Source: Tetrapisispora phaffii CBS 4417
Lineage: Eukaryota > Ascomycota > Saccharomycetes > Saccharomycetales > Saccharomycetaceae
Direction: 5' to 3'
DNA length: 64,000 nt
NCBI RefSeq assembly: GCF_000236905.1
Contig: NC_016528.1
Coordinates: forward strand, 506,001 to 570,000
Shown here piece after piece: positions 31,087 to 58,901 of the stretch; positions within the stretch are counted from its first letter, which is position 1, and every line of letters starts with the position of its first letter. The position numbers and the translations under genes were made by a program. The notes beneath the pieces were generated by a model, which saw only the letters and a program-made list of their open reading frames with translations, searched no databases and was not told the origin of the DNA.

Positions 31087-32664
31087 CTATTCGGTAACTT
31101 CACCGGTAATTGGGTCTCTCTTCTTGAAAGACATGAATAAATCATCCTTAGGGAAGATAGTAGCAAATACCTTAATTTTTTCACTTAATGGAGTAACCTT
31201 ATGTTCAAACTCGGTGTGTAAGGCGAATTTACCTAATAATGCAGCAAAAGTGATCAAAACATAAGTTTGACCTAAACAGACATGTGGACCACAGCCAAAG
31301 ACTAACCAATTCTTTTTGTTATCGTTAGCCTTCGAACCTTCGACCCATCTTTCTGGGATGAATTCTTCTGGATCGTCATAAACTTCTGGATCATGTAGAG
31401 ATGGATATAAAGTGGAAATCAACATAGCACCCTTTGGAGCAGTGTAAGATGGAGTAACTGGGAAATTGTTCTTGACAACATATGGAACCATTAAGACTGG
31501 TGGTCTATAACGTAGAGTTTCCTTGACAACCATGCTGGTGTATTCCATTTTTTCAATTAAGTCAATAGTTAATTCAGTGTTCATGTCATTGTTTCTAACG
31601 GCTAATTGTTCTTCTCTAATTTTTTGTAAAACATCTGGACGGTCAGCAACAATTTGGAATAACCAACAAGCTAGAGAGGAGGAAGCATCTTGAGAGGCAA
31701 ATAAGAAAGTGAAAATAGCTTCAGAAATTTCTTTGTTAGAGAATTCTCTGTGGAATAATCTTGAATCTTCATCGTTCTTGTACTTAGCATCATGCATTAA
31801 TTTACACCAAGCGTCCATAACACACTTTGGTTCACCACCTTTAGCAATGTAATCCTTTGACATTTGAGCACAATTTTCGAAAATCTTCATAGCGGCATCA
31901 GCGGTTCTCTTACCGTACCAAGTCTTTGTGAATGGCAAGATAATTGGGAAATTGACTAATTCCAACGCAGCAGTGACCAAATAGTAATCATCAGCGATTC
32001 CTCTGACTTGATCCTCAGTGATCCAGTCACCACAGAAGGAACCTAAAGACAAGGCACATAAGATTTCTCTCATTTCATGGAAGAAGACACGAGGTTCATA
32101 ATCAGTTTCCTTTGAGAATTCAACGAATTTTTCAATATATTTGTCCATAATTTTTTCCTGACTTGGTAAATATTTAGCTAAAGCGGCTTTAGTGAACAAC
32201 CCATTCAATGATCTTCTGTAGTCGGTGTGAGCCTTACCATCTAAGAAGACCCAATTGGAAGGCCTTAAGATTTTAATGGCAACATCGACGACACAAGGTT
32301 TGACATACTTTGGAGCTTGCAAGATTTTTCTTGATAAATCCCTAGTGGAGGCGATGACGACGAATTTATGGAAGATAGAGACACATGATAATTCACCAGA
32401 ATCCCACTTAGCTTTGTATTCTTCGAATTTTGGATCTAATGATTCCAAGAAAGGACCGATGATTGGATAGAATTTAAACCTTGGACCGGCAATTGAACCT
32501 TTTTTAATTTGATAAGAGACTTGGTCCCAAACCAATACGACGGAAATAAAAGTGAAGAAAATTTTCCAATATGACATTTCTTGAATTGAGCTTAGAACAG
32601 ATTGGTTCTGAATGATTGCATCAGTAGCATTTTGAGCAACTCTGTTAACAATGACTTCAGCCAT
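31087..32664 (-). CDS. ERG5: Erg5, C-22 sterol desaturase (CYP61)
   Basis: The 525-residue cytochrome P450 has an N-terminal membrane anchor (about residues 30-50) and an I-helix segment FLFASQDASSSL. It also has the ExxR motif in KETLRYRPP, the PERW motif (EEFIPERW), and the heme-binding loop FGCGPHVCLGQ with the Cys ligand. S. cerevisiae Erg5 (YMR015C, 538 aa) introduces the C22-C23 double bond of ergosterol in the ER. Codon use is more biased and GC-richer than in the neighbours, in keeping with high expression. The snoRNA cluster lies just beyond its 3' end. Confidence 0.97.
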   Translation of the reverse strand: MAEVIVNRVAQNATDAIIQNQSVLSSIQEMSYWKIFFTFISVVLVWDQVSYQIKKGSIAGPRFKFYPIIGPFLESLDPKFEEYKAKWDSGELSCVSIFHKFVVIASTRDLSRKILQAPKYVKPCVVDVAIKILRPSNWVFLDGKAHTDYRRSLNGLFTKAALAKYLPSQEKIMDKYIEKFVEFSKETDYEPRVFFHEMREILCALSLGSFCGDWITEDQVRGIADDYYLVTAALELVNFPIILPFTKTWYGKRTADAAMKIFENCAQMSKDYIAKGGEPKCVMDAWCKLMHDAKYKNDEDSRLFHREFSNKEISEAIFTFLFASQDASSSLACWLFQIVADRPDVLQKIREEQLAVRNNDMNTELTIDLIEKMEYTSMVVKETLRYRPPVLMVPYVVKNNFPVTPSYTAPKGAMLISTLYPSLHDPEVYDDPEEFIPERWVEGSKANDNKKNWLVFGCGPHVCLGQTYVLITFAALLGKFALHTEFEHKVTPLSEKIKVFATIFPKDDLFMSFKKRDPITGEVTE

Positions 32665-33101
32665 GATGAAATGGATTGAATGTGTATATTTTGTTTTGTG
32701 TGTATGTATGTATATATAAAATAGTCAGAATAGAAGATAGAGTAAGAAGAAAGAATGCAAATTGAAATAATAAATCAAATACAATCCAGTATATATATAT
32801 GAAATAAAATGAAATTGTGAACCAAGGAAAAAAGTTTTTAAAAACGAAAAATTTCTCCATTGAAACAATTTAAAGTGTAGATACCTTAATGAATATACTA
32901 AAGAAAATGTAGTGAGAATAACTATATAGATTATACTAGTAGTGCGATGCCAAAAGACGATAAAAGTTTCATGAGAAAAGTAGTTAAATCCATTAATTTT
33001 CAAAATTATTTTTCGTTTTCTTATTAGTTTGATGACATAGAGAGAGAAGAAGAAAGCATCTAAAAGCGTTAAATGATAATACCGATTGGTGCGATGAGTC
33101 T

Positions 33102-33125
33102 AATGAATGAATGAATGAATGAATA
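33102..33125. repeat. (AATG)n tetranucleotide repeat
   Basis: Five to six AATG units in the ERG5 upstream region. Confidence 0.85.
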
Positions 33126-33652
33126 TCCAAACGACGAGACGAGACGGTAAGAATTGACACTTTACGACGAAGAAGCTTGAACTGAAGCGATAGTTTGACA
33201 GTTCTAACGAGTGGTTCCACCAGTTGACTTAGCACTGTAAAGTTTGTTTCATCTGATGGCTGCGTTGGTAGAGAGAGCGAGTAGAAATAGCATTGCATTT
33301 TTTCGTAGTTAAGAAAATACTCCAAAATGCACTTACTATGTGATATATGAACAATAGCACTGAGTGTATGCCTGTGTCTCGCTGCCTCTTCCACCGTTAG
33401 ATGGATATTTCTCCTGTGGGCAAAGTGTTAACATACGAAAAGACAAGTCAAAAAATTCACAGAAAGAATTTTAACGGGAAGGAAAAGTTATACGCTGTGC
33501 TTTCAAATATAGAGATATGTGTGCGTGGACGGGAATTGTGGGAGACAGGCCGAAGAACGCTGGAGGGAGACAGGGTAAGATGGTTTGGTGCGAGGGTAAG
33601 AGGGGGGAAATAGTGTTTAAAAGTGCGTGCGCCATATTTATCATTACTAAAC

Positions 33653-33674
33653 GGAAATGGAAATGGAAATGGAA
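33653..33674. repeat. GGAAAT hexanucleotide repeat
   Basis: Three full GGAAAT units plus GGAA in a GC-richer part of the spacer. Confidence 0.8.
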
Positions 33675-35152
33675 AAGAGGATCTCTGTGCGCTATGTTCT
33701 GCGTAATCTCGCAAATGTGTAATTGTGGATGTTTCTGTTGAGAGTTGCTCTTTGGCGATATACAGCAGGTGCTGTTTTTCTTCTTTTTTCTTTTTCTGTT
33801 TTTTTGTTTATTTTTATTGCTTATTCCTGCAGAGTCCGTCTGTGTTCACTCGCTCTTTTTTGCAGGTGTGCAATTGATTGTACGAATAGCAGACAGAGCG
33901 CGGAAATAAGATGAGGCCACTGACGATCATTGTAGAAGTGACATTAAACATGCAGAAGCAGTGCCCTTGATTGCATGTTCAATTGATTTCCGGATGCTTT
34001 AAACGAGGAAGGATAGTTAACTGTCTGTGCGAGATGATTATACGGTAGTGACTTAAACGAGGAAGTAATCTCATTCATCCCATTCATCCCATTCCATGTC
34101 AAGCAATTGTGGTATGGCATGGTGGATGGATGGGTCGGTTGCTATCGACAAGGTGATAGCGGTGCATGTTCAGATAACATATTTCGCGCTTACAAAGTAA
34201 TGCAGACTCCCCTTTACATTTTCTGGCTGTGGTCCTCACACTCATCATCGGTACAAATAAGATGGATAGTAATGAAGCAATTCAAAGGATAATCAAAGAC
34301 TTATCCATATATTCAAGTATACTCGTGAGATGGTTCTCGAATTATTGATCCGTAATAGAGAGAAGAGTACGAAGTATGTGACTATATAATCACACTTGGT
34401 AGCTTTTATATGGGTTCTGCACTCTGATCAAACCCTGGCGCATATGCTATTGATCATACGAACTTAAAACGTAGCATCTGTCCTTTCCCTTATAATCTAC
34501 CGATATTGTTAACACATACTGGCTCCGATTAAGTTTCGCATTCATCTCTATACTATCACCATAGTTTCGCATCCACCTCCCGCTACAAAGTTATGATATT
34601 CATTCATTGCCACTACTGCATTTCCATGCAATAAATAAAAAAAAGTTTTCTTTTTCTTGTTTAAGTGAAGAAGCGTGCCATGAAGTGCCAGGATGGGTAA
34701 AATGTTGTCATCCTCGGCAGAAAAAATTATATATGGACATCTGGACATCAATATATACATACGTTGATTATTTTAGTGTGGGTGACATATCTACACGCTG
34801 ACATGTGTAGGTATCGTAATGGTTCAATAATAAGGATTGCACACTATTGAAGAAAAAAACCGTTATATTGAACAACACTTTTAGATGACTGCATGCATGT
34901 ATGTCTGTGCGTAATTTGATTCTTGGTTCCTTGCGAGGAACGTTTTGTTGAAATGCGTAAATTACAAGGACATACGACGGGGATTCTTACGTTGGTATTA
35001 TTTCACTACGTTGTGTATTATTTTATTTTATTTATTTTATTTATAATATTAAATACATACAGTCATATATTAAAACCCAAACTTCTTAGAATTATTCACG
35101 ATTTGTCTTGGATTATTCTGAGCAAGGGCAGAATAAGGTATTCTTTATTTAG

Positions 35153-36598
35153 TTATCTATTGTGGTCGTTCGGGTAATTCATATGGCCAGGGCCATGGGC
35201 AGGTGTGCCATTGATATGATCATGATTCATGGTGTTTGGGGATAAATGGTGGAATATTACAGTCGGTTGCGGACTTTGTTGATAGTCTAGCTGTGGATAA
35301 AACTGGTGCAGTTGCGGTGGATATTGTTGGAGAACGTGTTGCTGCTGCTGCTGCTGCTGTAGTTGCTGTTGCAATTGTGGATTAATGTGTTGCAAATGTG
35401 CCGCGCCAGGATCTAGCTGGGGCGGCTGAGGATATGTATATGGATGAGTATACTCATACTGCGGTCCTCTTGCATACTCTGTAGTATGTATACGTTGGAT
35501 TATGTTGTCCTTATGACTGTTGTCGGATGCATATGGTGTCGTGTAGGACGGTGTTGTATTTATCATTTTTCTTTGAGTTAACTCATGCATCTTAACAATC
35601 TCCGGTAGATCATCTGAAAGTAATGGATATAGAAAATCCGATATATTAGTTTTTTCCGCTAAATACCTTGCCCGCTCTAGTGGAATCCATACACCTTTTG
35701 AATGCATTAACCCAACTTTAACAACGTGTCTCTCTTTCTCTGATCTCAACATTCTATCTCGTCTACCTCTGGTCATTCCAGTAACATTCAGCAGTTTCGT
35801 ACCATTAACCATATGGTTATCTGCTCTTCGAAGCACTACTACACCGTTAGCTATTACTTGATAACATACTGTGATTTCATCCTTCCATAGTATTGTAGTT
35901 AATCTGGGAATAGTATGATTACGTCCTATTTCTGGTGTGACTGACGTTGGCAATATTATATTTGGCTTGTTAAAATTATTCATTTCATTATTATTATTGT
36001 TACTGGTGGCAATTTTCGTGCCATTTAAGTTATTAATTACAAAAGCATTGTTTGCTTGGGCCGGTTCAGAATAGCTCATTATCATTTTATTTTCATTGTT
36101 ATCCTCATTAGTATTAATACTGACATTGAGATTATTTGTTTGCGAAAATCCAGGATAATGATAGCAATTTGGACCTAGAAGATCTTTGCCATTATTAATT
36201 GTCACCGGTAAATTATTTCCTGGATGTTGAATATTATTATTGTAATCAATATTGGAAACATCGTCACTGTTAGTAATATTTCGTTTCGAATCGATATGCA
36301 ATTTTATAGACGGTAAAACATTACTTTGTTGATACGAATTCTGTCGCAGATGATGTCGCAAGGGCTGGGCATTTCCGTTTTGTTGGGAATGTCCCAACTC
36401 TTGCGCTAATTGCTATCTCGTTTGATTGGTTATTATATTTAAATTGGCAGATTGGTTGATGGGACTCGGTATTATCGAAGGGGTGTACTGGTTGGATTGT
36501 ATCTGTCGTGGCGGTGAAACGAAACGTCTCATTCGATCACCAATTTTGTTGTTTTCTGTTATAATATTGTCAGTACTATTAAGATTTTTTTGTTGCAT
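35153..36598 (-). CDS. Phd1/Sok2-type APSES transcription factor with in-frame TAG
   Basis: One frame runs from the ATG at 36598 to the stop at 35153 and is interrupted only by a TAG at 36415-36413. The first part encodes 61 residues ([13 protein letters not shown]...). The rest, 419 codons, contains Asn/Gln-rich sequence, the APSES DNA-binding domain (about residues 230-340 of the whole; [25 protein letters not shown] is its core) and a Gln/Pro-rich tail with poly-Gln. The first ATG after the TAG is at 36085, still upstream of the APSES domain. Phd1 and Sok2 (YKL043W/YMR016C) are duplicates that control filamentous growth; neighbours come from both blocks, so the copy is not decided. Because TAG is followed by CAA TTA, translational readthrough is likely and would give 481 residues. 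A simple nonsense mutation or use of the ATG at 36085 are the alternatives. Confidence 0.85.
36407..36415 (-). promoter_or_regulatory. candidate stop-codon readthrough site
   Basis: Reading on the minus strand: AGA TAG CAA TTA GCG. TAG CAA TTA is a perfect match to the UAG CAR YYA context, established in plant-virus and yeast reporter studies as giving efficient readthrough. It sits in frame between the N-terminal 61 codons and the rest of the APSES gene, and both sides are Gln/Asn-rich. Confidence 0.65.
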
Positions 36599-39005
36599 TC
36601 GACAGACAGCGTGAGGAAATTAAAGCGTATGAAAGTATATATGAAATGCACACAGTCAGTAATAAAAGTTAAAAATAATAATAATAATAAAATTGTAAGT
36701 AAAATAATTAAACCAATTAAAAGCAGGCTAGAATAGAACGACAACTGCAAATATTAAATATGAACATTTATTAGCATAAATGAAAAAATATAAAATGATA
36801 TTCTTATTATTTTCACTATTTCCACTTTTTTGATGTTCTTAACTATTCAATGCAATTAATAACTAGCGTTTGCGTGCTACTATTATTCCCTAGGTAAACT
36901 AATTTTTAATGTATTTTCAAAACGTTCTTCTTCCTGGACGATAAGAAAAAAAGCAGACATGTCAATTTTGATAGTAACAAACATAAGTTTTCGAGATAGA
37001 GATATCTAACTATCCATATTTATATTTATACTATAAGTATTTTTAACATAATAGCATGGTATTAAATTTTTTCGGATGTGTTGAAAAAGAAAAAGAAAAA
37101 TAAGTCAACAAAAGACATACAAGCACGGGAACTGACTAGAGAACCACTTAATAATACAAGATTAGTGTGATTTTGACATAGGGCCAAAAACTTAACTTTA
37201 TATGTGGAAGCAGATGTGTCCGTGTCCGTGTCCATACGTACTGTGTGGGTGCATGTGAGAGTGTTTTCTTTCCTTGCAATGTGATCGTAATCCAATCTGT
37301 AATCCAATTCAGGCCAATATAAGTGGTGTAAGGTCAATAAAGCAATATAAGTTGAGTTAGATCGAGCAGGAAATGGGATTGGAAATGAAAAAAATGGAAA
37401 GATGAATAACGTAGTGTATCGAATCGCGCAAAGATGGTCTCTGAAAATACCAATCACCAATTGACCAATAGAGTGGAAAAGGAAACAGAAGCAGAAAAAG
37501 AATCACAAAAGTATGGCAGAGATCAGAGGTATGCTTGAGAAAGCGAGGAGTCAATTGAGATCCATAATGTTACCTGTTGGTACACACGAGTATATGTGTA
37601 CGTCTGTTCGTGTGTGTACACATATATATTATCCCTGCTAGTTGCTGCGTCCGTTTTACTGACGGAGCAACTCTCTTTTACTTCTCTCCGGATTGCAGAG
37701 ACTGGCAGTGTCCTATACAAGTGTCCGAAACAATGGGACGACAGCGATACCGTCGTGGGAAAGTTTTTTTTACGAAATCAATTTTTAATATATTAAAGTT
37801 TTAGATTTCCGAAAAAACACCGAAGAGGAGAACAGGCAAATACATTTACATAACAAGTTTACCTTTACGGAAATTTTTACGGCAAAAACAAGCAAACAAG
37901 CAAGAAAAACAACTTGTTTTATTACTTTGCACATCCTGTTCTACGGATATGTGTTACCTGAATATGAAAATTGGGGATCGATCTTAAAAGCCTGGTCGGA
38001 TTTGTCAGGGTGGTTGTCTGTTGGCTATGTATGTATGCTGGCACGATATATAACTTAACAATGTTGAAACTGATGATGTGCTTAAATAAGTTTTTTGTTA
38101 TTTTCACTGCGCGAAAACACATGACACATGCCACTTTTTTCCGTTCCGCCGAAGACAACAGACAAGACAAAAAAGCTTAATATCTCTTTAGAAAAGTGTA
38201 TTTTGGTTATTTGTTGACTTTTTCTGTTTTGCAAAGCCGGAGCGCTATCATTTTTGTTTTCTGAGTGTCGTCTTGTCAGGAGGGAGGAGCGGGGACACCG
38301 GAGGAGAAGGGAAGGTACAACGATCTGCGTACAGCAAATGATCCAGTCGCATCGGTTCAATGTTACACGTTGAGTGCGTACTTCGTTGTGGTTCTTTCTT
38401 GCGATTCAAACCATGTAATCTGCTAGTTCTACTATTTGCACATGTATACATTACAGTGCTGAGATTTGGCCTCGCTGGGTACATATTAGACTGCTCCGCT
38501 AGGGGAAAGGGCAATAAAACTTAAAAATCCTTAAATAACTTTATAATCATTACAGGAATCTATTTTTTGTGTCTGTGCACATGACGAGCGTGCCGGAGTG
38601 GAAAGCTGAGGGAAAGGGAGAGAGAGAGCAACTCTGTGAGCTTGCCTGTGGGATACCTTGCCATTCCGCCCCTAGATCAAGTCAGAGGTCTCTTATTCCT
38701 TCTCAGCAGTGTGTGCGTTGTTTTCGTGTTTCAGAAATAACAACCGTATCTTTGCAAAGGAACAACACACAATTAACGCAGACCTTTTCACATCAGGTTG
38801 TTTTTATATTTAGTGCTCTACCGAACCGTTTGCTGAACCGGTCAAATTAATGCGTAGTTGGACAGAAAAAAAAGTAAATAACATTGGTCTCAACGAACTG
38901 GCCACAAATCATAAAATAATGCATTGCAATGAAATGCATAAATAGTTAATTGATTTTTGTTTTTTGCTCTGCTACATTGTTATACAGACATACACGTATT
39001 TAAAC
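36599..39005. promoter_or_regulatory. 2.4-kb upstream region of PHD1/SOK2 gene
   Basis: No gene is supported. The region holds scattered GC-richer patches (about 37570-37760 and 38240-38720) and short meaningless frames. Long upstream regions are usual for regulators of filamentous growth. The right end also includes the PRI2 3' flank. Confidence 0.45.
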
Positions 39006-40547
39006 CTATTTAATGACCTCGCTCTTCCCTTCACGTTTCTCGTGCCATTTTCTGGACCGTTCGAAATATAAATTTGGGTGAGATATGTGTGTCATGTCAT
39101 CAACACTATCAGACACCGAGTCATTGCTGCTATGCGATGCTTCAAACACTTTTGTGCACGCTATGGTATACTCATTCTTTGCGCAGAAATCTAATACACT
39201 CACTATTTGTTGCTGCGAAAGATCCATCTTCTTCAGTTCTGAGGTTAATCTATCGGGATTCCAATCCCTGTATGGACATCCATGGTATTCACCCCTAGCC
39301 GGTCTGGGTTTAGACAGGATCGTTCGACAGTCCCATGGCTTGTAGTTGATTCGGTTACCTTCTAGACCATAATTATGTCTGAAATTATATCTGTACTCTT
39401 TATTGAACTTATCTATCGAAACACGTCCTGCAAACGCCTCTGTCCAAAATTGCATAGCTTCATCACATGATAATCCAATACCTTTCAGGAAAAAACTCAG
39501 TTGTTGACGACCATTGTACCTTAAATGGTGATGTTCTTTTAAACCGTACATCAAATTCTTCGCACATAGTGGGAAATGTCTTTGAATGTCGTCGGTATTA
39601 ACACTTCTGTTGTTGATATCATTATTTTGATTTTCAGTCGATGTGTAATCATCTCCTTTGAAATCGGAAATAGTATAACCAGATGAAAGATGTTGTAAAA
39701 TCGGAACTAATCGATCATCTTCATTCAACCTAGGTAGATATTGATACGTCCTAATTAAATCCTCCATCAAGTTTTTTGAAAATTCGCTGGTTAATAAATT
39801 TAATTGCTGGAACTGAGGAAGATAAGCGTATCCATCTTTCAAAAAAACTTGACGACTGCCCACAAGATCAATAACATTTTCAAATGGCAATTTGATGAAC
39901 TTCTCTTGTTGAAGGTATTGTCTCTTTTGCTGATCATCAGTGATATTCAATTGGAATTGCAACGATGGTGCAATCGTGTTATAGAGTTCCTTTGAGAATT
40001 TCGCTTTCTCTTCATCAGAGATATATCGTAAAAGTGGAAGGTTTAAAGATTTCACAAATTTGCTCTTGTCAACAGTAGTTAACATTTCATACCTGATTTT
40101 AAATAATAGTACTTCTGATCTAACAAACTTGTCACGAAGTTCTTTGGAACGACAAAAACACAATCTTAATATGTAATGCGAATAGTAATCTTTTTTTCTG
40201 TCTTCAAAATTATCGGTATTGAATGGAAGCAACTTCTGGAATTGAGGCTTAATAATACTCTCAATTTCCTTCAAACTTTTATTTCTTGAGATACACGATT
40301 CGATCTCTAGTAAGATCTTTAACCTATCAATTGCCCACGTCTCAAACTGATGTAAAGTGATCTCACCTTGAGGTGGTAACTCGTAAAACGATACTTTACC
40401 CTCGTAAATCTCATCATACAGCTTCTTCTCTTCCTCTGTCGTAGATGCGGTAGAACTTAATATCACTTGGTTGGAAACATCACCACTGGAACTGTTGAAG
40501 TCAAAGTTACGCCTTGACGCTAGTTTTTTCTTCGACTGTCTGAACAT
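39006..40547 (-). CDS. PRI2: Pri2, DNA primase large subunit
   Basis: The 513-residue protein matches S. cerevisiae Pri2 (YKL045W, 528 aa). The four cysteines that bind the 4Fe-4S cluster are visible at 328 (HFPLC), 407 (KPWDC), 424 (YHGC) and 464 (YTIAC). The spacing of 17 and 40 between the last three is as in the yeast enzyme. Pri2 forms primase with Pri1 and is part of the DNA polymerase alpha-primase complex that makes the RNA-DNA primers. The start is the ATG at 40547 (MFRQSKKK). Confidence 0.97.
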   Translation of the reverse strand: MFRQSKKKLASRRNFDFNSSSGDVSNQVILSSTASTTEEEKKLYDEIYEGKVSFYELPPQGEITLHQFETWAIDRLKILLEIESCISRNKSLKEIESIIKPQFQKLLPFNTDNFEDRKKDYYSHYILRLCFCRSKELRDKFVRSEVLLFKIRYEMLTTVDKSKFVKSLNLPLLRYISDEEKAKFSKELYNTIAPSLQFQLNITDDQQKRQYLQQEKFIKLPFENVIDLVGSRQVFLKDGYAYLPQFQQLNLLTSEFSKNLMEDLIRTYQYLPRLNEDDRLVPILQHLSSGYTISDFKGDDYTSTENQNNDINNRSVNTDDIQRHFPLCAKNLMYGLKEHHHLRYNGRQQLSFFLKGIGLSCDEAMQFWTEAFAGRVSIDKFNKEYRYNFRHNYGLEGNRINYKPWDCRTILSKPRPARGEYHGCPYRDWNPDRLTSELKKMDLSQQQIVSVLDFCAKNEYTIACTKVFEASHSSNDSVSDSVDDMTHISHPNLYFERSRKWHEKREGKSEVIK

Positions 40548-40818
40548 TTGGTGCTCAACGAATAAATATGAAACTTGCTTACTGTTATGTCACAGCAATT
40601 TTGAAACCTCACCAGCACAACTGCAAATACAATACACTTATCTTCATACTAATTAATATAAAAGTTAAAGATACAATATCCAATATTTAAATGAAGTATG
40701 ATACAATTTCATAACTTCGCGATTTTTGCGATGCATTATATATTAACGCGTCTGTATTGTAGCAACTGGGGTATAATGAATATATATTATTTGACGTTAG
40801 TAAGATCATATACATACA

Positions 40819-40854
<36 letters not shown>

Positions 40855-41184
40855 TATTAGTGAATCTGCGTCTGTCGCGTATATAGGCAGATATGTATAT
40901 AATAGGAGTAATTCCTTCATTGTACTGTGTATCAGAACATGCTGAGAGCAGGGTCCTCGATCATCTCGAACTAGAACCAGTATATTGTTCTTTTTTCGTG
41001 GTCTATCATTTTCTTGAAGTTCTATTACTATAGTAATATAATTAGCATCATCAAGGTACCTGCTTTAATAGTCACACGCTGTGAACTTCAAAATCTATTG
41101 ATGTTCAAAATAAATATAGAAGCGACGAATTGATTATTATGGACAAGCAGGACTTTATCCTGTCACATTTTTTTAAAAAATGGT
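40548..41184. other. intergenic between PRI2 and MAC1 with CATA repeat
   Basis: PRI2 promoter and MAC1 3' flank. Holds the CATA microsatellite listed separately; no gene was seen. Confidence 0.5.
40807..40850. repeat. (CATA)n tetranucleotide repeat
   Basis: About ten CATA units followed by a short AT run, in the PRI2 upstream region. Confidence 0.88.
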
Positions 41185-42711
41185 TTACAGGTAATGCATG
41201 TTGCTAAGATTACTACTTTGGTTTGTTGGATCATAATCTTGCAAATTGAAGTGATAGAGGCTAATTAAACTGTCAAACCATTTAATTATATCTGTCACTC
41301 CAGATTCTGTTTGGGATTGGCGAGGCAACTGTATTTTTATGTAGTCCCACCAATATCTTGATGGAATGATTTTATTTTTGAATAAAATCTTCGTTTTCCG
41401 TCTGAATGGGAAATGTAATATACCACTAAAAATGATTTTATCAAATGAGACGAGCTCTTCTAAGTGTATGGTGCATGAGGTACATTGGCAAGTTTCTGGA
41501 GTGCACTTACAATCTGCTAGACTGCAATCGTCAACTAGTGTATTTAATATTTGAGCTTCACCGACTTCACTTAATGGAATTCCACTTTGTTGGATGTATG
41601 CATTTAGTTCGGTTTCATTTCTATGAAGTAAACAGTTAGAGCATGGACAATTATCATCTGGACACGAACACGTAGAGCTTAAATAAAGACCCTTGTGAGT
41701 TAACAGTTCTACCATTAAGTTCGAATTATTCACGATATCATTCATCATAATGGTACTGTCTGGGTTATTGCTATCATAATCAATATACTTCAGCAGATCT
41801 GTATCAGGTTTTGAAGGATTTTCATAATTTCCAATGCATAGATTGCTGTATTTTGTAGATTCGCTATTAGAAACAATTCCATAGTGATCAACGTTACTTG
41901 TGTTAGTTTCATCGACACCAACAGGTTCAATTGCACCCGGTGTGCTATTTTCAACTGGTAAATTCTTGCTGTGTGTCGCCAAGTATTTATCGTCTATCTT
42001 ATTTTTTGAATCATGATAAGCTTTCATGGCAGTTCCCTTTCCTTCACAACCGCATAATTTAATCGGATTATTTGGAGTCGAGTTCAATTTTCCATCTTCT
42101 TTTTCATCCTTAACGTACCTCTTGATGTATTCGTTCTCTAACATGTATTTAAAAGCTTTATCATCCTGTAAAGAGGATGAAGCCCGAACAAAACCATTCT
42201 CCTTGTCACTTAATTTAGGCCTCACATTCAAATTCACATTCGCATTGGCATCCGCATCGTTCTCGGAGCTATCATCAACAATGATATTAAGTTTCCCATT
42301 GATGAACACAGCATTCTGTTTCTTCTTAACATTCAGAAACAAAATCGGATTAGCGTCCATTCCAACACAAGAACGCTTCCCATCATAGCCAGTACTATTC
42401 CCTTGGTCCACATCTGTGTCATTTGCAAGAGTCACCTCCGAAGAGACCCCGTTCCCAGCAGAACCTACCTGAGTATCGACACTCCCATCAGGACTCGTAG
42501 ACGACTCCAACAGATTCTCTGGATTCCTCTCTTTCGCAACCTTCACCTCCGAATCCTTATCGACCATGATGACCTTCCTAGTCTTACACGACGTGGGTCT
42601 TCCCCTAGTCCGCACCTTCACCAGCATCCTCCCCGTATGCTTACACGTCGAGGATCTATGTCCTCGAATACATGAGACACACGCATACTTGTCATTTTGA
42701 TATATAATCAT
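41185..42711 (-). CDS. MAC1: Mac1, copper-sensing transcription factor
   Basis: The 508-residue protein has an N-terminal copper-fist domain (residues 1-40). Its zinc ligands are C11, C14, C23 and H25, and an RGRP minor-groove motif follows near 37-40. Two Cys-rich copper-binding repeats near the C-terminus have the C-x-C-x4-C-x-C-x2-C-x2-H pattern: CSCPDDNCPCSNCLLH and CKCTPETCQCTSCTIH. This is the layout of S. cerevisiae Mac1 (YMR021C, 417 aa), which activates CTR1, CTR3 and FRE1 when copper is low. It is longer because of the Asp/Asn-rich middle. The frame extends two codons upstream to a TTG; the ATG (MIIYQNDKYAC) at 42711 aligns with the yeast start. Confidence 0.96.
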   Translation of the reverse strand: MIIYQNDKYACVSCIRGHRSSTCKHTGRMLVKVRTRGRPTSCKTRKVIMVDKDSEVKVAKERNPENLLESSTSPDGSVDTQVGSAGNGVSSEVTLANDTDVDQGNSTGYDGKRSCVGMDANPILFLNVKKKQNAVFINGKLNIIVDDSSENDADANANVNLNVRPKLSDKENGFVRASSSLQDDKAFKYMLENEYIKRYVKDEKEDGKLNSTPNNPIKLCGCEGKGTAMKAYHDSKNKIDDKYLATHSKNLPVENSTPGAIEPVGVDETNTSNVDHYGIVSNSESTKYSNLCIGNYENPSKPDTDLLKYIDYDSNNPDSTIMMNDIVNNSNLMVELLTHKGLYLSSTCSCPDDNCPCSNCLLHRNETELNAYIQQSGIPLSEVGEAQILNTLVDDCSLADCKCTPETCQCTSCTIHLEELVSFDKIIFSGILHFPFRRKTKILFKNKIIPSRYWWDYIKIQLPRQSQTESGVTDIIKWFDSLISLYHFNLQDYDPTNQSSNLSNMHYL

Positions 42712-50084: not shown

Positions 50085-50199
50085 GATATTCTTAGATTTT
50101 GTAATGATATTAGGTCGTATTATTCACTAATTGAGACAGTAGGATAGTGGGGGGTATGGGTGTTAGGATTAATCTTATCGATAAACCCTTACAAGAATT

Positions 50200-50226
50200 T
50201 GTTGGAAACGACACTGGAAGTATAGC
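50200..50226 (+). mobile_element. left end of family-2 solo LTR interrupted by Ty
   Basis: It begins TGTTGGAAACGACACTGG, as does the LTR at 18805, and is preceded by GAATT (50195-50199). The assembly gap cuts it after 27 bases. Its other end is at 55975-56231, followed by GAATT. Together they are one solo LTR into which the Ty element inserted. Confidence 0.85.
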
Positions 50227-50566
50227 NNNNNNNNNNNNNNNNNNNNNNNNNNNNNNNNNNNNNNNNNNNNNNNNNNNNNNNNNNNNNNNNNNNNNNNNNN
50301 NNNNNNNNNNNNNNNNNNNNNNNNNNNNNNNNNNNNNNNNNNNNNNNNNNNNNNNNNNNNNNNNNNNNNNNNNNNNNNNNNNNNNNNNNNNNNNNNNNNN
50401 NNNNNNNNNNNNNNNNNNNNNNNNNNNNNNNNNNNNNNNNNNNNNNNNNNNNNNNNNNNNNNNNNNNNNNNNNNNNNNNNNNNNNNNNNNNNNNNNNNNN
50501 NNNNNNNNNNNNNNNNNNNNNNNNNNNNNNNNNNNNNNNNNNNNNNNNNNNNNNNNNNNNNNNNNN
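50227..50566. other. assembly gap (340 N)
   Basis: From the flanking sequence it should hold about 95 bp of the family-2 LTR and about 281 bp of the 5' LTR of the Ty element, about 376 bp in all. That is close to the 340 N entered. Confidence 0.9.
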
Positions 50567-50694
50567 TACACTAATAAAGGACCAATCGATTATTTAACTA
50601 TAAGAAGATTGGACTATACTTAGAAGCAACTCGAAGTGGCTAATGACACTAACTTAGATGTTGGAACTAACCAACATAAGCTTGTTTCTCCACA
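50567..50694 (+). repeat. 5' LTR of Ty, 3' portion
   Basis: Matches 55845-55969 of the 3' LTR with no substitutions but five single-base indels between about 50602 and 50635. These destroy the Gag ATG (ATTGG instead of ATGG at about 50608). It ends CTCCACA. Confidence 0.92.
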
Positions 50695-53600
50695 TGGAGG
50701 TCTTACCCGGATGGATAACGACCATTCGAGTTCTCAGGTTGTAAAGGAAACCCTTCAATCAAATATTGAGATTCCTAATGAGAACACAGATGTTTTCATT
50801 AGAACATTTAAAAATCGTTTAAGCACCCTAGAGGGCTTATACGAAAAGACTATGATGAAGCATGACGAATTTCTTAACTCAATCGAAGCTGGTGACTATT
50901 TAAGCAAAATCACTAAGCTGGAAGAGGAAGAAAAAGGTCTTGAGCTGAACATAGAAAAATTAAGGACGAAAATCATTGATAGAGAAGGACTGTTAAATAA
51001 CAGAACCACTGCTCATACAAGAACGTCCATTAATAATACTGTAACAAACGGCAGTAACAAGGAAGAAGGTAATCAACAAACTAACTTGATGAACAATGGA
51101 TCATTAATGTTCAAGACATTAAAGGGTAAAGAAGTTGTTATCAATAAGAATTACCTTCCACTTAATATTGAATTTAAACTAATCAATATTGAGGACCTTC
51201 CGTTGTGGATCAAGGAATTCGTTAAATTCCTAAATTATTACAATTTAGATAATTTAAATGAATTGCCAGAATCTACAATAATTGACCCTGTAGAAGATCA
51301 ATTCATAAAGGGTCAACTCAAGGAAAATATCAAGTGTGAAGATATATATGACTTTATCTTCATGGAGAATAGTTCCATTGAAATCTTAAACGAAGTTAAG
51401 AGAATTTTCTTAAGAAAACTTAACTTTGCCAAACGCCAAAAATTATGGAAACAAGTGTCAATCACTGAGAAATCCAATAATTTGGCTTTACAACTAAATT
51501 TATTGAATAAATTAGTTGGAATTGAAGAATTCATTGACACCAATAAGATGGAAATCTTCAATTTGATTATCAATAGGATTAACAATCAAGTATTGCAACG
51601 AATTAATGCAGTACCTATTGATCTATCAAAAATAACTCCTACTCAATATCTAGGAATTATTAAAAAACGCGCAGAGGATGCTTTTGAATTTCATGAACAA
51701 ATAAAGCAATTTTATTCATCTGAACGAGAAGAAGCCAAATCTAACTCTAAAAATCCAGAAACTCTTAGGCCTATTGTAAAAAAGGTACAGAGAAATCCAG
51801 TACAAACGAAAATATCCACAAAGAAGAATCAATTAAAATCAGCTGTGGATACAGTAATTGATTCAGGATCTGGGATTAACTTCACCAATAAAAAGGGATT
51901 AATTTTCAATTATAGAAAATTAACAACAATCCCTGAATATTCTGGTGTCGGATCTTCAAGCAATCTGCAGATCATTGGACAGGGGTCCTTAAGAGTTAGA
52001 ATGGATAATAACGGAAAATATCAATACATTCCTGTTTACTACTGTCCAGATGAAGATGCAACAGTTCTGTCAGCCTTTGGCCTTCGCAAAACACTTGGTT
52101 TTATAATTACCGAAGATTACAAAAATCTAAAGAATGACAGCATTAGTATTAAAATACATAACGTAGCCAATACTACCTGGATAAAGTCTGATGATTTACT
52201 ATTATCTTCCAAAGATAATAGGACTTCGGAAAAATTAACGAAGGCGTCATCCATAAGATGGATTAAACCTTCGACAAGCTTTAATAATAAAACTGTGACT
52301 ATACATGAAGCACATGAAAGATCAAATCATCTTCCTGTAGATGTCATAGTTCACAATATTGAAAATAATGCTTTTTCAGATGTTAACAAAATCAACTTAA
52401 AAAAATCAGAGCTGATCAATTTTTACTGTGAGCAATGTGCTCAAGCAAAAATGAAACAGCATGATCATATCAAGGACTCCATGAATAAACACTACGAACA
52501 AATGCAACCAGGACAATCCTGGAGCTTAGATATTCGTGGTCCTTTAGGAAAGAACCTTGCAAAAGTTGATAACTACTTATTATTGATGGTAGATAATGTT
52601 TCAAGATTTTTACTAGTATCCACACATACGAATAAAAATAAAGAAACCATTTCTCTGCAAATCAAAAATAATATACAGTACATCGAAAAGCAATATGATC
52701 GAATTGTAAAAGAGCTTATTGTTGATAGAGGATCTGAATTTACTAATGATTCTCTAAAAACATATGTATCGGAGAAAGGTATTAAATTAATGCTTACCGA
52801 TACAAACGACCATGCTTCCAACGCTCGTGCAGAAAGATTCATTGGTATTATGAACAATGATATTAGAACATTAATGCATTACAGTGATCTTCCTTGGGCA
52901 CTCTGGAAATATGCAGCTCTTGCAGCTGCTAGAATCAGGAATTTGTTCATGACTAAGAAGTTAAATTGTAGTCCAATGACCACATTATCAGGAAAGAATG
53001 AACAAATTCGATTTAATTCCTTCTTACCGTTCGGTGCGCATGCGTTCGTAAAAAATCAAACAAACAACAAGTTAACCAATCAAGGTATACCAGCCATAAC
53101 CTTGTGTAAGGATCCAAATTCCTTTGGTTACTTGTTCTATCTACCACAAACTCGAAAAGTCATTAGTACTATGAGTTATATATTGGCTAATTCTGAAGTA
53201 AACGGTGATTTCATAGATCCAAATAAGGTCTTAAGTGAAATCGTTCCTGATAACGATGACACAAATGAAGTCACATCAGAAGATGCTCTTGAAATTGAGG
53301 CTGAACCCAGTAATGCTGATGACATTACTATTATCGAAGGGATTGAAAATGACACTCAGTACAAAATTCCGCCCAATATTCAAGAAGACACTGTCTATGG
53401 TCTGGATACTATAAATATTAATGACAACCAAAAGGTTTCTGACCACACTCGCTCGTCGACCGCCGATGAGGAGGTCAAAGAACCTACATTGGAACAGGAC
53501 ACTTCGAATACTTCAGACAACCATTCTGTCCACGAAGCTCATATGTCTACTTTACCAAAGGACACTGCTACTGCAACTTCACATATTGATATTTTGCCAG

Positions 53601-55240
53601 ACAGTGTCGCAGAAAGTGAGCCCGTTAAAAATGTCTCTGATCAAGAGCTGCTGTTAATCAACCGTTTCGATAATAAGAATTCGGACAAGTTTCCCAGCAC
53701 CGAAGCCATGAAACAGAGAAGGACAAAGCTGTTTCTCAAAGAATTTGCTTCAATCACTAGACGTCCATTAAAGTCTCGGAAACGTGAACTTACCACCTTG
53801 GATCTTGAGGGATTTGAAGCAGCGGAGGAACAGAAGAAAAAAATCAAGTTACGTTCTGTACAAGCAGTCAATAAAATTAGAACTTTATATTTTAAGACTG
53901 CTATCACCAATAATACAGACGTTCGAGGACGAAAACTCTTTTCGGAAGCATTTGAGAAAGAACTACAAAATCTTTTGAAGATGCAAGTTTTTGACACATC
54001 AATCTCCATTCCTAGAAATCAAGTCCCAGCTAACCGAATTATACCTCTTCAGACTATATTTACGGTGAAGCGTGATGGGACTCATAAAGCTCGTATTGTT
54101 TGCCGAGGGGACAAACAAACGGAAGCCACCTACAGTAACTATCATACAGATCTTCTTCAAATTGATACTTTGAAATTGTTCCTGATGATAGCCAATAACC
54201 GTAAGATGTGGATACAGACTTTAGATATAAATCATGCATTTTTGTATGCTGATTTACGGGAGGAGATATATGTTCCACTTCCACACGATAGGAGATTTGT
54301 GACACCGTTAAAAAAGGCACTTTACGGTTTAAAACAAAGTCCTAAGGAATGGAATGAGCATCTAAAAAAATTCCTGAACAGTATTGATCTGGATGACTCC
54401 AGACATACGCCAGGTATATTCAGAAATCACGATTATAGCATCATGATAGCTGTATATGTAGATGACTGTGTCATAGCTGCTAAAAGTCAGGAACTTCTAG
54501 ACGAGTTTGTTTCCACCTTAAGAAACAGATTTGAGCTTAAAATTATTGGAAAAATGAATCAAGGCATTCTACGTACAGATGTACTAGGAATGGACCTTGA
54601 TTATAATATTGATGAAGGTAAAATCAGCCTATCATTGCAATCTTACATTGAAAGTATTGAAAATGATTGGCTTGATAAAATTAGTCATATTAAAACTACT
54701 TCTACTCCACATGTTTCATCCTATGAACACAACATCAAAAACATTGATTCTATGGACACTAAAACAAGATCTAAAAAGATCAATGAACTGCAGAAGATAA
54801 ATGGCGTGATTAACTATATTAGATCTAGATGTAGATATGATGTAGAGTTCGCTGCCAATAAACTGGCCAGGAGTGTGAACTTTCCAGCAGACAACGTTTT
54901 TTACATGGCTGATAAACTTATGAACTATATTTTCCAAACTAAGTCAGAAAAACTTGTGTTCACAAGAGAAACCACTGATAACCCGGCCATAACTCTGCTA
55001 TCTGATGCCTCACTGGGTACGGAACATGACATGAAGTCCAGAATGGGCATAATGTTATGGTATGGAGAGAACCTCTACAAAGTCATTTCAAGAGCCTCCT
55101 CAGCTGTCAGAAACTCATCTACTGAAGCTGAACTGGACGCTATCTATGAAGGATCTAAAGAGGCATATTATCTAAAAAAGATTTTAGAAGAAATGAACCT
55201 ACAAAAAGATCCAACTGTCATTTCCATTACAGACAGCTAA
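50636..55240 (+). CDS. Ty Gag-Pol single-frame polyprotein
   Basis: A continuous 1534-codon frame opens inside the LTR; there is no Gag/Pol frameshift. Gag occupies about residues 1-390, is coiled-coil-rich and lacks a CCHC knuckle. Protease has DSGSG near 409. The integrase zinc domain follows (HEAHERSNH ... CEQC, about 558-601). The DDE core is D in SLDIRGP, D in VDRGSEF near 698, and E in NARAERF. Reverse transcriptase has YVDDC in the last third, then most of RNase H. The true start should be an ATG about 28 bases upstream, as in the 3' LTR (55887), but it is broken by indels next to the gap. The frame closes early at TAA 55238-55240; the remainder is listed separately. Ty4-like protease wording (D-S/T-GSG) suggests a Ty4-related lineage. 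Confidence 0.93.
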   Translation: MANDTNLDVGTNQHKLVSPHGGLTRMDNDHSSSQVVKETLQSNIEIPNENTDVFIRTFKNRLSTLEGLYEKTMMKHDEFLNSIEAGDYLSKITKLEEEEKGLELNIEKLRTKIIDREGLLNNRTTAHTRTSINNTVTNGSNKEEGNQQTNLMNNGSLMFKTLKGKEVVINKNYLPLNIEFKLINIEDLPLWIKEFVKFLNYYNLDNLNELPESTIIDPVEDQFIKGQLKENIKCEDIYDFIFMENSSIEILNEVKRIFLRKLNFAKRQKLWKQVSITEKSNNLALQLNLLNKLVGIEEFIDTNKMEIFNLIINRINNQVLQRINAVPIDLSKITPTQYLGIIKKRAEDAFEFHEQIKQFYSSEREEAKSNSKNPETLRPIVKKVQRNPVQTKISTKKNQLKSAVDTVIDSGSGINFTNKKGLIFNYRKLTTIPEYSGVGSSSNLQIIGQGSLRVRMDNNGKYQYIPVYYCPDEDATVLSAFGLRKTLGFIITEDYKNLKNDSISIKIHNVANTTWIKSDDLLLSSKDNRTSEKLTKASSIRWIKPSTSFNNKTVTIHEAHERSNHLPVDVIVHNIENNAFSDVNKINLKKSELINFYCEQCAQAKMKQHDHIKDSMNKHYEQMQPGQSWSLDIRGPLGKNLAKVDNYLLLMVDNVSRFLLVSTHTNKNKETISLQIKNNIQYIEKQYDRIVKELIVDRGSEFTNDSLKTYVSEKGIKLMLTDTNDHASNARAERFIGIMNNDIRTLMHYSDLPWALWKYAALAAARIRNLFMTKKLNCSPMTTLSGKNEQIRFNSFLPFGAHAFVKNQTNNKLTNQGIPAITLCKDPNSFGYLFYLPQTRKVISTMSYILANSEVNGDFIDPNKVLSEIVPDNDDTNEVTSEDALEIEAEPSNADDITIIEGIENDTQYKIPPNIQEDTVYGLDTININDNQKVSDHTRSSTADEEVKEPTLEQDTSNTSDNHSVHEAHMSTLPKDTATATSHIDILPDSVAESEPVKNVSDQELLLINRFDNKNSDKFPSTEAMKQRRTKLFLKEFASITRRPLKSRKRELTTLDLEGFEAAEEQKKKIKLRSVQAVNKIRTLYFKTAITNNTDVRGRKLFSEAFEKELQNLLKMQVFDTSISIPRNQVPANRIIPLQTIFTVKRDGTHKARIVCRGDKQTEATYSNYHTDLLQIDTLKLFLMIANNRKMWIQTLDINHAFLYADLREEIYVPLPHDRRFVTPLKKALYGLKQSPKEWNEHLKKFLNSIDLDDSRHTPGIFRNHDYSIMIAVYVDDCVIAAKSQELLDEFVSTLRNRFELKIIGKMNQGILRTDVLGMDLDYNIDEGKISLSLQSYIESIENDWLDKISHIKTTSTPHVSSYEHNIKNIDSMDTKTRSKKINELQKINGVINYIRSRCRYDVEFAANKLARSVNFPADNVFYMADKLMNYIFQTKSEKLVFTRETTDNPAITLLSDASLGTEHDMKSRMGIMLWYGENLYKVISRASSAVRNSSTEAELDAIYEGSKEAYYLKKILEEMNLQKDPTVISITDS
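50695..50710 (+). other. Ty primer-binding site, tRNA-Gln
   Basis: TGGAGGTCTTACCCGG directly follows the 5' LTR. It is complementary to the 3' end of yeast tRNA-Gln(UUG) including CCA at 15 of 16 positions; the remaining position can form a G-U pair. It does not match initiator tRNA-Met. The site is translated as part of Gag. Confidence 0.8.
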
Positions 55241-58176: not shown

Positions 58177-58614
58177 TCAACCATGAATCAATTCATTTAA
58201 TTCCAAAGATTCTTCAAATTTGCCCATTTCCTCGACTAAACGTGATTCATTACCATCACGTTCATAATTAATAACCTTTAAAATTTTTGCTACAGGAACT
58301 AGACTAATAGATTCTAATTTTTTATTATCGCTATCACCGTTTTTATCATTATGACTTTCTGAGATATCCATATCTCCTGTAACGTCCATCAAATAGCAAT
58401 TGACTTCCTTATCAAAGACACTATTTATCTCTTGTCCCACAATTTTACAACCTCTCAAGTAGTTCACGTACATATCATTAGTGTTATCTTCATCGAATAT
58501 GAAATTATCTTCAAACTCATCGGAAGGACCGGAATAACGTATTTTACATGGCACATTGTGAGCCGTGTATCCTCTATTTTCGATATTAATGTTACTATTA
58601 AATTGGATTTTCAT
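58177..58614 (-). CDS. RNH203: Rnh203, RNase H2 subunit C
   Basis: The 145-residue acidic protein has the family pattern near the N-terminus (PCKIRYSGPSDEFEDNF) and the C-terminal block VAKILKVINYERDGNESRLVEEMGKFEE. These match S. cerevisiae Rnh203 (YLR154C, 110 aa). An Asp/Asn-rich loop in the middle explains the extra length. Rnh203 with Rnh202 forms the scaffold for the catalytic Rnh201; the complex removes ribonucleotides from DNA and RNA from hybrids. The ATG at 58614 (MKIQFNSNI) fits the yeast start; an in-frame ATG at 58671 would add 19 residues. Confidence 0.88.
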   Translation of the reverse strand: MKIQFNSNINIENRGYTAHNVPCKIRYSGPSDEFEDNFIFDEDNTNDMYVNYLRGCKIVGQEINSVFDKEVNCYLMDVTGDMDISESHNDKNGDSDNKKLESISLVPVAKILKVINYERDGNESRLVEEMGKFEESLELNELIHG

Positions 58615-58901
58615 TGTAATGTACCTTTCACCTTCTATTATCATCCCAGTATTCAATATAATCCAGAACATCCGACACCACTATTGACTTTATTTATGAT
58701 ATGCTTTTATAAATATTAGTTATTTGGTGTTTTGGTGTCTGATTTTTCACGTCAACGAATTCCAAAGCCTTAGTTTAGCGCCATATAAAAAATTGAAAAG
58801 GTGAAGCTTTAGATTTTACTTCAATATTTAAAGGAATCTCTATACAATGATATAGCTACAGTCAAAGTCTGGAGACCATTACTAAGTCAATAATAGAAAA
58901 T

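Follow-up and report, generated by a model that had tools for sequence, protein, structure and literature searches.

The window, a stretch of 64,000 nt on contig 9 of Tetrapisispora phaffii CBS 4417 (assembly of 12.1 Mb in 17 contigs), carries on its minus strand a frame that runs from an ATG at 36598 to a TAA at 35153 and is open apart from one TAG, with 61 codons before this stop and 419 codons after it. Minus-strand positions 36421-36404, read directly, are ACG AGA TAG CAA TTA GCG, which confirms an earlier sequence-only reading of the locus that had described a single TAG followed by CAA TTA. The product lengths given there were likewise correct: uninterrupted reading past the UAG gives 481 residues and termination gives 61. 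An ATG at 36085 opens a frame of 310 residues. The features of the locus are the following (papers given by PMC number are cited throughout from excerpts).

36416..36598, minus strand: open frame of 61 codons from the ATG at 36598 to the UAG, the N-terminal segment if the stop is read through (open frame; no relatives, weak coding score)
36413..36415, minus strand: in-frame UAG (sequence read directly)
36407..36412, minus strand: CAA UUA, a readthrough hexanucleotide of the TMV type, CARYYA (sequence; motif as defined in an excerpt of PMC3542737)
36357..36405, minus strand: predicted stem-loop of 49 nt with 18 pairs, after a 7-nt spacer (RNA folding; -25.5 kcal/mol for the 60 nt past the UAG)
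36086..36412, minus strand: 109 open codons with no in-frame ATG and seven out-of-frame ATGs (ATG scan, codon scores, open-run counts)
36146..36163, minus strand: YHYPGF, a pattern of a kind that precedes the APSES domain in 25 of the 173 relatives listed (pattern scan)
35615..35851, minus strand: APSES/KilA-N DNA-binding domain, a match to Pfam PF04383 (domain match, alignment, structure prediction)
35153..36085, minus strand: frame of 310 residues from the ATG at 36085, protein database entry P0002 on the same contig (open frame and database listing)
Candidate introns, minus strand: GTATGT at 37120 to AAG at 36184 or TAG at 36406; GTACGT at 37241 to CAG at 36220 (motif enumeration)

The gene is of the PHD1/SOK2 type, one of two in this strain, and is likely a regulator of growth form. 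Its APSES/KilA-N domain is matched at 29.7 bits against a cut-off of 23.8, the fold predicted for residues 61-180 has pLDDT blocks of 79-96 except for one block of 64, and the APSES model matches Mbp1 with a TM of 0.80 by target length; the APSES fold is predicted, with confidence, to be intact. Ten of 62 near-invariant APSES columns are changed and 52 kept, the fewest kept among 68 proteins, and in the 67 relatives the next highest numbers of altered columns are 5 and 4 (mean 0.5), a comparison that favours these relatives in that they were picked from the 173 and the columns were defined on them. Such changes fit fast evolution and are compatible with a shifted role or with early decay. The second PHD1/SOK2-type gene, on contig 14, encodes 365 residues without interruption and is 100% identical over its length to TPHA_0N01350. 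In the flanks of the interrupted gene (31087-42711) lie a P450 gene (ERG5-like) on one side and genes for the large primase subunit and a copper-fist protein on the other, neighbours that in S. cerevisiae are divided between the SOK2 and PHD1 loci. Elsewhere in the window, a frame of 1509 open codons at 50711-55240 appears by eye to encode a Ty1/copia-type polyprotein and is preceded by a frame with a masked stretch at 50156-50623.

The stop context and the predicted stem-loop

The string TAGCARYYA as such is common. The window has five occurrences, counting the present one, where 4.5 would be expected, and the genome has 932, compared with 1059 of a reversed control pattern. The setting of this site is unusual: none of the 34 other sites examined, which are the first 30 listed out of the 932 (all on contig 1) and the four others in the window, has an ATG frame of at least 50 codons before it together with at least 100 open codons after it. 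The sequence-only reading had argued that a random nonsense mutation would seldom fall in this context, and counts of nonsense routes bear this out. Single-base routes to a stop, unweighted by route, yield TAG CARYYA in 3 of 4470 cases across 19 other window genes (the 23 ORFs of at least 150 codons minus this gene, one masked, one Ty-like and the ORF at 58177-58671) and in 1 of 192 cases in this Gln-rich gene, which places the leaky context, given a random nonsense mutation, at about 1 in 200 to 1 in 1500.

Between the UAG and the predicted stem-loop (36405-36357) lie seven unpaired bases (CAAUUAG). Folding energies are -25.5 kcal/mol for the first 60 nt past the stop (z = -6.13) and -27.0 kcal/mol for the first 75 nt (z = -5.06), in each case with 0 of 200 shuffles as stable; in a 171-nt context the signal is weaker (z = -2.74, matched by 5 of 200 shuffles) and the hairpin is kept in the centroid, and a 40-nt window holds the small inner hairpin alone, its -9.8 being equalled by 1.9% of 3178 40-mers. 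Of 42,268 other 60-nt windows on the two strands, two equal the target in stability and 81 have -20 or better. For the same 20 codons, the stability of the target is reached by 7 of 20,000 synonymous recodings and by 0 of 20,000 codon-order shuffles. Past the terminal stop codons of 20 window genes, among them that of the gene itself, the best 60-nt fold is -9.6, and the best at the 34 other TAGCARYYA sites examined, -14.6, is not near the target. The hairpin DNA occurs once in the genome and matches no Rfam family at E <= 1. A further local fold, of -29.1 kcal/mol in 60 nt, lies at 34078 on the plus strand between the P450 (ERG5-like) and APSES genes.

With UAG followed by CARYYA (here UAG CAA UUA) and a long open stretch of 419 codons in the same frame after the stop, the site has the sequence features of type I, the TMV class. 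The 3' structures of viral readthrough sites typically begin around 8 nt past the stop (excerpt of PMC3542737), and a structure at about this distance, as seen in types II and III, is present here as a prediction with a 7-nt spacer; the stop context is UAG C and not the UGA CGG/CUA of type II or the UAG with a 3' G or purine-rich octanucleotide of type III, and the site is therefore classed as neither. Because the context and the fold were both noticed after the fact, we discount their rarity, and even after this discount the hexanucleotide and the fold together make pure chance a poor account.

Coding evidence on the two sides of the UAG

The coding signal on the two sides of the UAG is uneven, with YHYPGF and a positive codon score after it, and no relatives and a weak score before it. 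For the 109 codons that follow the UAG, the codon score is +8.1 in the frame of the gene and between -9.8 and -23.8 in the other five; most of the signal lies nearer 36085 (+0.3 for the first 63 codons, +6.6 for the last 44), and over the first 63 codons the other two forward frames score -17.1 and -10.5. Stretches of 109 codons are stop-free in 241 of 38,044 cases in the non-coding sequence of the window, and the open codons above the first ATG number at most 39 in the 19 other window genes, one of which is cut off by the window edge after 15. YHYPGF (36163-36146) lies inside the 109 codons and is absent from the 310-residue model P0002. Of the 173 relatives, 25, among them the T. phaffii paralogue, have the pattern [YF]x[YF]PG[FY] before the APSES domain and 148 lack it, these relatives being the listed best matches taken from the best 120 of 951 and the best 120 of 719; 0 of 20,000 shuffles of residues 1-230 make a YPGF-type pattern. 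Seven ATGs, all out of frame, are found between the UAG and 36085 (36372, 36321, 36261, 36192, 36126, 36108 and 36096). Given the 109 open codons without an ATG, the loss of YHYPGF from P0002 and these seven out-of-frame ATGs, translation probably begins upstream of 36085. Whichever mechanism applies, the listed model appears to have the wrong N-terminus, and readthrough of the UAG would most simply yield a protein started upstream.

For the 61 codons before the UAG, the conservation that the sequence-only reading had proposed as a check on readthrough did not emerge. A homology search with residues 1-175 returned 99 candidates and no match at E <= 10, which is a weak test because the YHYPGF motif inside this segment also found nothing. 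Aligned with the paralogue, the 61 residues score no better than chance (equalled by 460 of 500 shuffles), and there is no close relative of the interrupted gene among the matches listed. Pro/Gln/Asn-rich matches to the N-termini of relatives, four of which were tried among the best-scoring ones, were weak, being equalled by 4, 4, 11 and 22 of 300 shuffles, and were taken as composition. The segment has a codon score of -2.2. Of 1579 non-coding windows free of stops, 322 do at least as well, 6% of 797 coding windows do worse, and a different forward frame, which contains 4 stops, gets a higher value (+0.3); the score is blunt here, the undisputed 310 codons getting -4.2 in their own frame.

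Open runs of 61 codons occur in 1579 of 42,536 stretches of non-coding sequence. Beyond the first upstream stop, the open run of this gene measures 68 codons, and among the 19 other window genes one, the P450 gene, exceeds it with 124 stop-free codons at 32664-33100, a reminder that long open runs arise by chance. The ATG at 36598 has a C at -3, a poor start context, and would be the first in the mRNA only with a nearby 5' end, since 11 other ATGs lie between 37300 and 36598.

The proposed readthrough and its rivals

We take a native, structure-assisted stop-codon readthrough site as the best reading of the locus and consider it moderately probable; this grading and those of the rivals below are judgements and not computed posteriors. 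The readthrough proposed by the sequence-only reading has gained a predicted stem-loop that had gone unseen, YHYPGF and a coding signal after the UAG, and a poor case for a start at 36085, and it goes without upstream conservation. Ribosomes would initiate at the ATG at 36598 and reach the UAG after 61 codons, where UAG CAA UUA would allow a near-cognate tRNA to compete against release factors, and the stem-loop 7 nt downstream, close to the ribosomal mRNA entry, would favour continuation. The fraction read through would become the 481-residue PHD1/SOK2-type factor with the YHYPGF segment and the APSES domain, the terminated fraction a 61-residue peptide without known domains, and the dose of the factor would be set by the efficiency of readthrough. 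We infer that readthrough takes place in T. phaffii on an mRNA whose 5' end lies upstream of 36598, that it is stimulated by the hairpin formed in that mRNA, and that the amount of factor made is regulated.

Reporter measurements in S. cerevisiae put the readthrough of a UGA followed by CAATTA at 38% in [psi-] and 96% in [PSI+]; for two animal stem-loop sites the values were 0.9% and 2.9% in [psi-], against 22% and 18% in [PSI+] (excerpt of PMC3609751). Judging by the CAATTA reporter values in that yeast, the hexanucleotide alone could supply a useful amount of full-length factor. The [psi-] values of the two animal sites count against a functional site, as does the argument that readthrough in yeasts is for the most part nonadaptive (excerpt of PMC6550407).

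The sequence-only reading had also suggested that a prion or stress state could switch the regulator, and to this conjecture the analysis adds one new fact, the Q/N-rich N-terminal domain of T. phaffii eRF3 (L045 874-2859, minus strand; best solved match an eRF3 chain, 4crn). Its first 150 residues include 61 Gln and Asn, 19 Tyr and 26 Gly, with repeats of the QQYYQQQ type. A composition rich in Q, N, Y and G resembles known yeast prion domains. Because of this domain, a dose set through eRF3 by prion or stress would be possible. That the whole DNA-binding output is gated by a cassette of hexanucleotide and stem-loop, with eRF3 level, prion or stress state setting the dose, is conceivable, and we hold it to be rather doubtful.

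We consider it unlikely that the TAG is a nonsense allele of recent origin in a fast-evolving, duplicated regulator, whether fixed or confined to the type strain; context and hairpin would then be coincidental, or the context might have made the allele tolerable. Its precedents are the premature stops in 16 to 78 genes of Peterhof yeast strains and the interruption of the filamentation regulator FLO8 in S288C (excerpt of PMC4859572), and the intact paralogue in T. phaffii, the relaxed or shifted constraint on the APSES domain and the upstream segment of 61 codons without detected conservation all speak for it. However, it demands the 1 in 200 to 1 in 1500 context and a 2-in-42,268 fold at one place, and no second stop has appeared in 1257 nt. 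The allele must therefore be young, or the rest of the gene still selected; in a simple model with an assumed indel rate, the probability of no second lesion is 0.06 at 2% neutral divergence. We give very little weight to a base-calling or assembly error at the TAG: the locus is represented by one database sequence on one contig, but the stem-loop 7 nt away would be left unexplained, and most errors in shotgun sequence of that time were indels within runs.

It is quite improbable, in our estimate, that the 61-codon frame is a leader and that translation of the factor begins elsewhere: on a near-cognate codon downstream of the UAG, on the ATG at 36085 in a transcript with an internal 5' end, or through re-initiation or a shunt past the stem-loop. 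The database protein does start at 36085, the upstream coding evidence is weak, and in plant pararetroviruses a short ORF that ends just ahead of a large stem-loop permits shunting (excerpt of PMC3542737). Here, however, the 49-nt hairpin is small for shunting, the seven out-of-frame ATGs stand in the way of 36085, and a start there drops YHYPGF and leaves the 109 open codons unexplained, although the loss of YPGF need not be fatal because 148 of the 173 listed relatives are without the pattern. A 5' intron that removes the UAG is likewise hard to credit. The intron consensus of the group is GTATGT, TACTAAC and AG (excerpt of PMC4202332), and 11 of 217 near-consensus motif combinations would connect an upstream ATG in frame with the sequence beyond the UAG. 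One model combines a perfect GTATGT (37120) with a perfect TACTAAC (36275) and ends at AAG 36184, its upstream exon scoring +1.1 over 38 open codons, but it skips the nearer CAG at 36220, whose join is outside the 11 open ones, and AAG is an uncommon 3' splice site in yeasts. The model from 37120 to 36406 relies on the branch point TAATAAC and bypasses the nearest YAG. That from GTACGT at 37241 uses the perfect TACTAAC, a string at 36269-36275 inside the open frame, and the first YAG after it, CAG 36220, yet it puts the open stretch 36412-36222 into an intron; non-coding stops flanked by open runs this long on both sides number 1 in 2421. In-frame models with TACTAAC were found in 0 of 17 other window genes against one here, whereas those ending in CAG or TAG were found in 4 of the 17 (2 with GTATGT, 0 with TACTAAC) against 7 models in this gene (1 and 1), and an intron would leave the context and the hairpin unexplained.

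Comparison with known systems

The tobamovirus-type (type I) signal UAG CARYYA is identical to the present site in the stop and all six following bases (Table 5 of PMC3542737). The differences are that here the gene is cellular, that a strong predicted 3' stem-loop, unlisted for tobamoviruses in that table, is added, and that the stop lies at codon 62 with the known domain entirely behind it. The benyvirus coat-protein extension likewise has UAG-CAA-UUA and a compact stem-loop (same table, there marked unpublished); it belongs to a plant virus, and the likeness is by description only. Drosophila hdc and other stem-loop readthrough genes share with this gene a cellular mRNA and a stem-loop after the stop, and the hdc stem-loop triggers readthrough when moved to other genes (excerpt of PMC3609751). 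Here the clade is another, and the comparison covers the stem-loop.

With the APSES factors PHD1, SOK2, EFG1 and StuA the gene has in common the APSES domain and a YPGF-type motif ahead of it; in contrast to them, its frame is interrupted and 10 of 62 near-invariant APSES columns are changed. Readthrough of a native S. cerevisiae gene is reportedly also found in PDE2. Readthrough of the PDE2/IMP3 type extends the end of an already complete protein, unlike in this gene. IMP3 is a native yeast gene with reported readthrough that was not repeated in PMC3609751, as far as the excerpt of that paper goes, and the same excerpt states that no stem-loop is known to stimulate readthrough in a native yeast gene. 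FLO8 of S288C, a cautionary case, likewise carries an in-frame stop in a filamentation regulator, but it differs in being a loss of function with almost no bypass, and clumping is unaffected by [PSI+] (excerpt of PMC4859572).

Each part of the cassette is thus already known singly. In the open-access literature we found no report of readthrough in a PHD1/SOK2-type gene, nor of a stem-loop-assisted stop in a native yeast gene. Should the readthrough reading be false, the locus would serve as a warning of how convincing a chance leaky context can appear. Should it be true, the gene would be a compact native yeast example of structure-assisted readthrough and, as far as we know, the first native yeast gene with a stem-loop-assisted stop; an entire DNA-binding factor, and not merely a tail, would sit behind a leaky stop, offering a defined natural target for testing control of morphology by an eRF3 prion.
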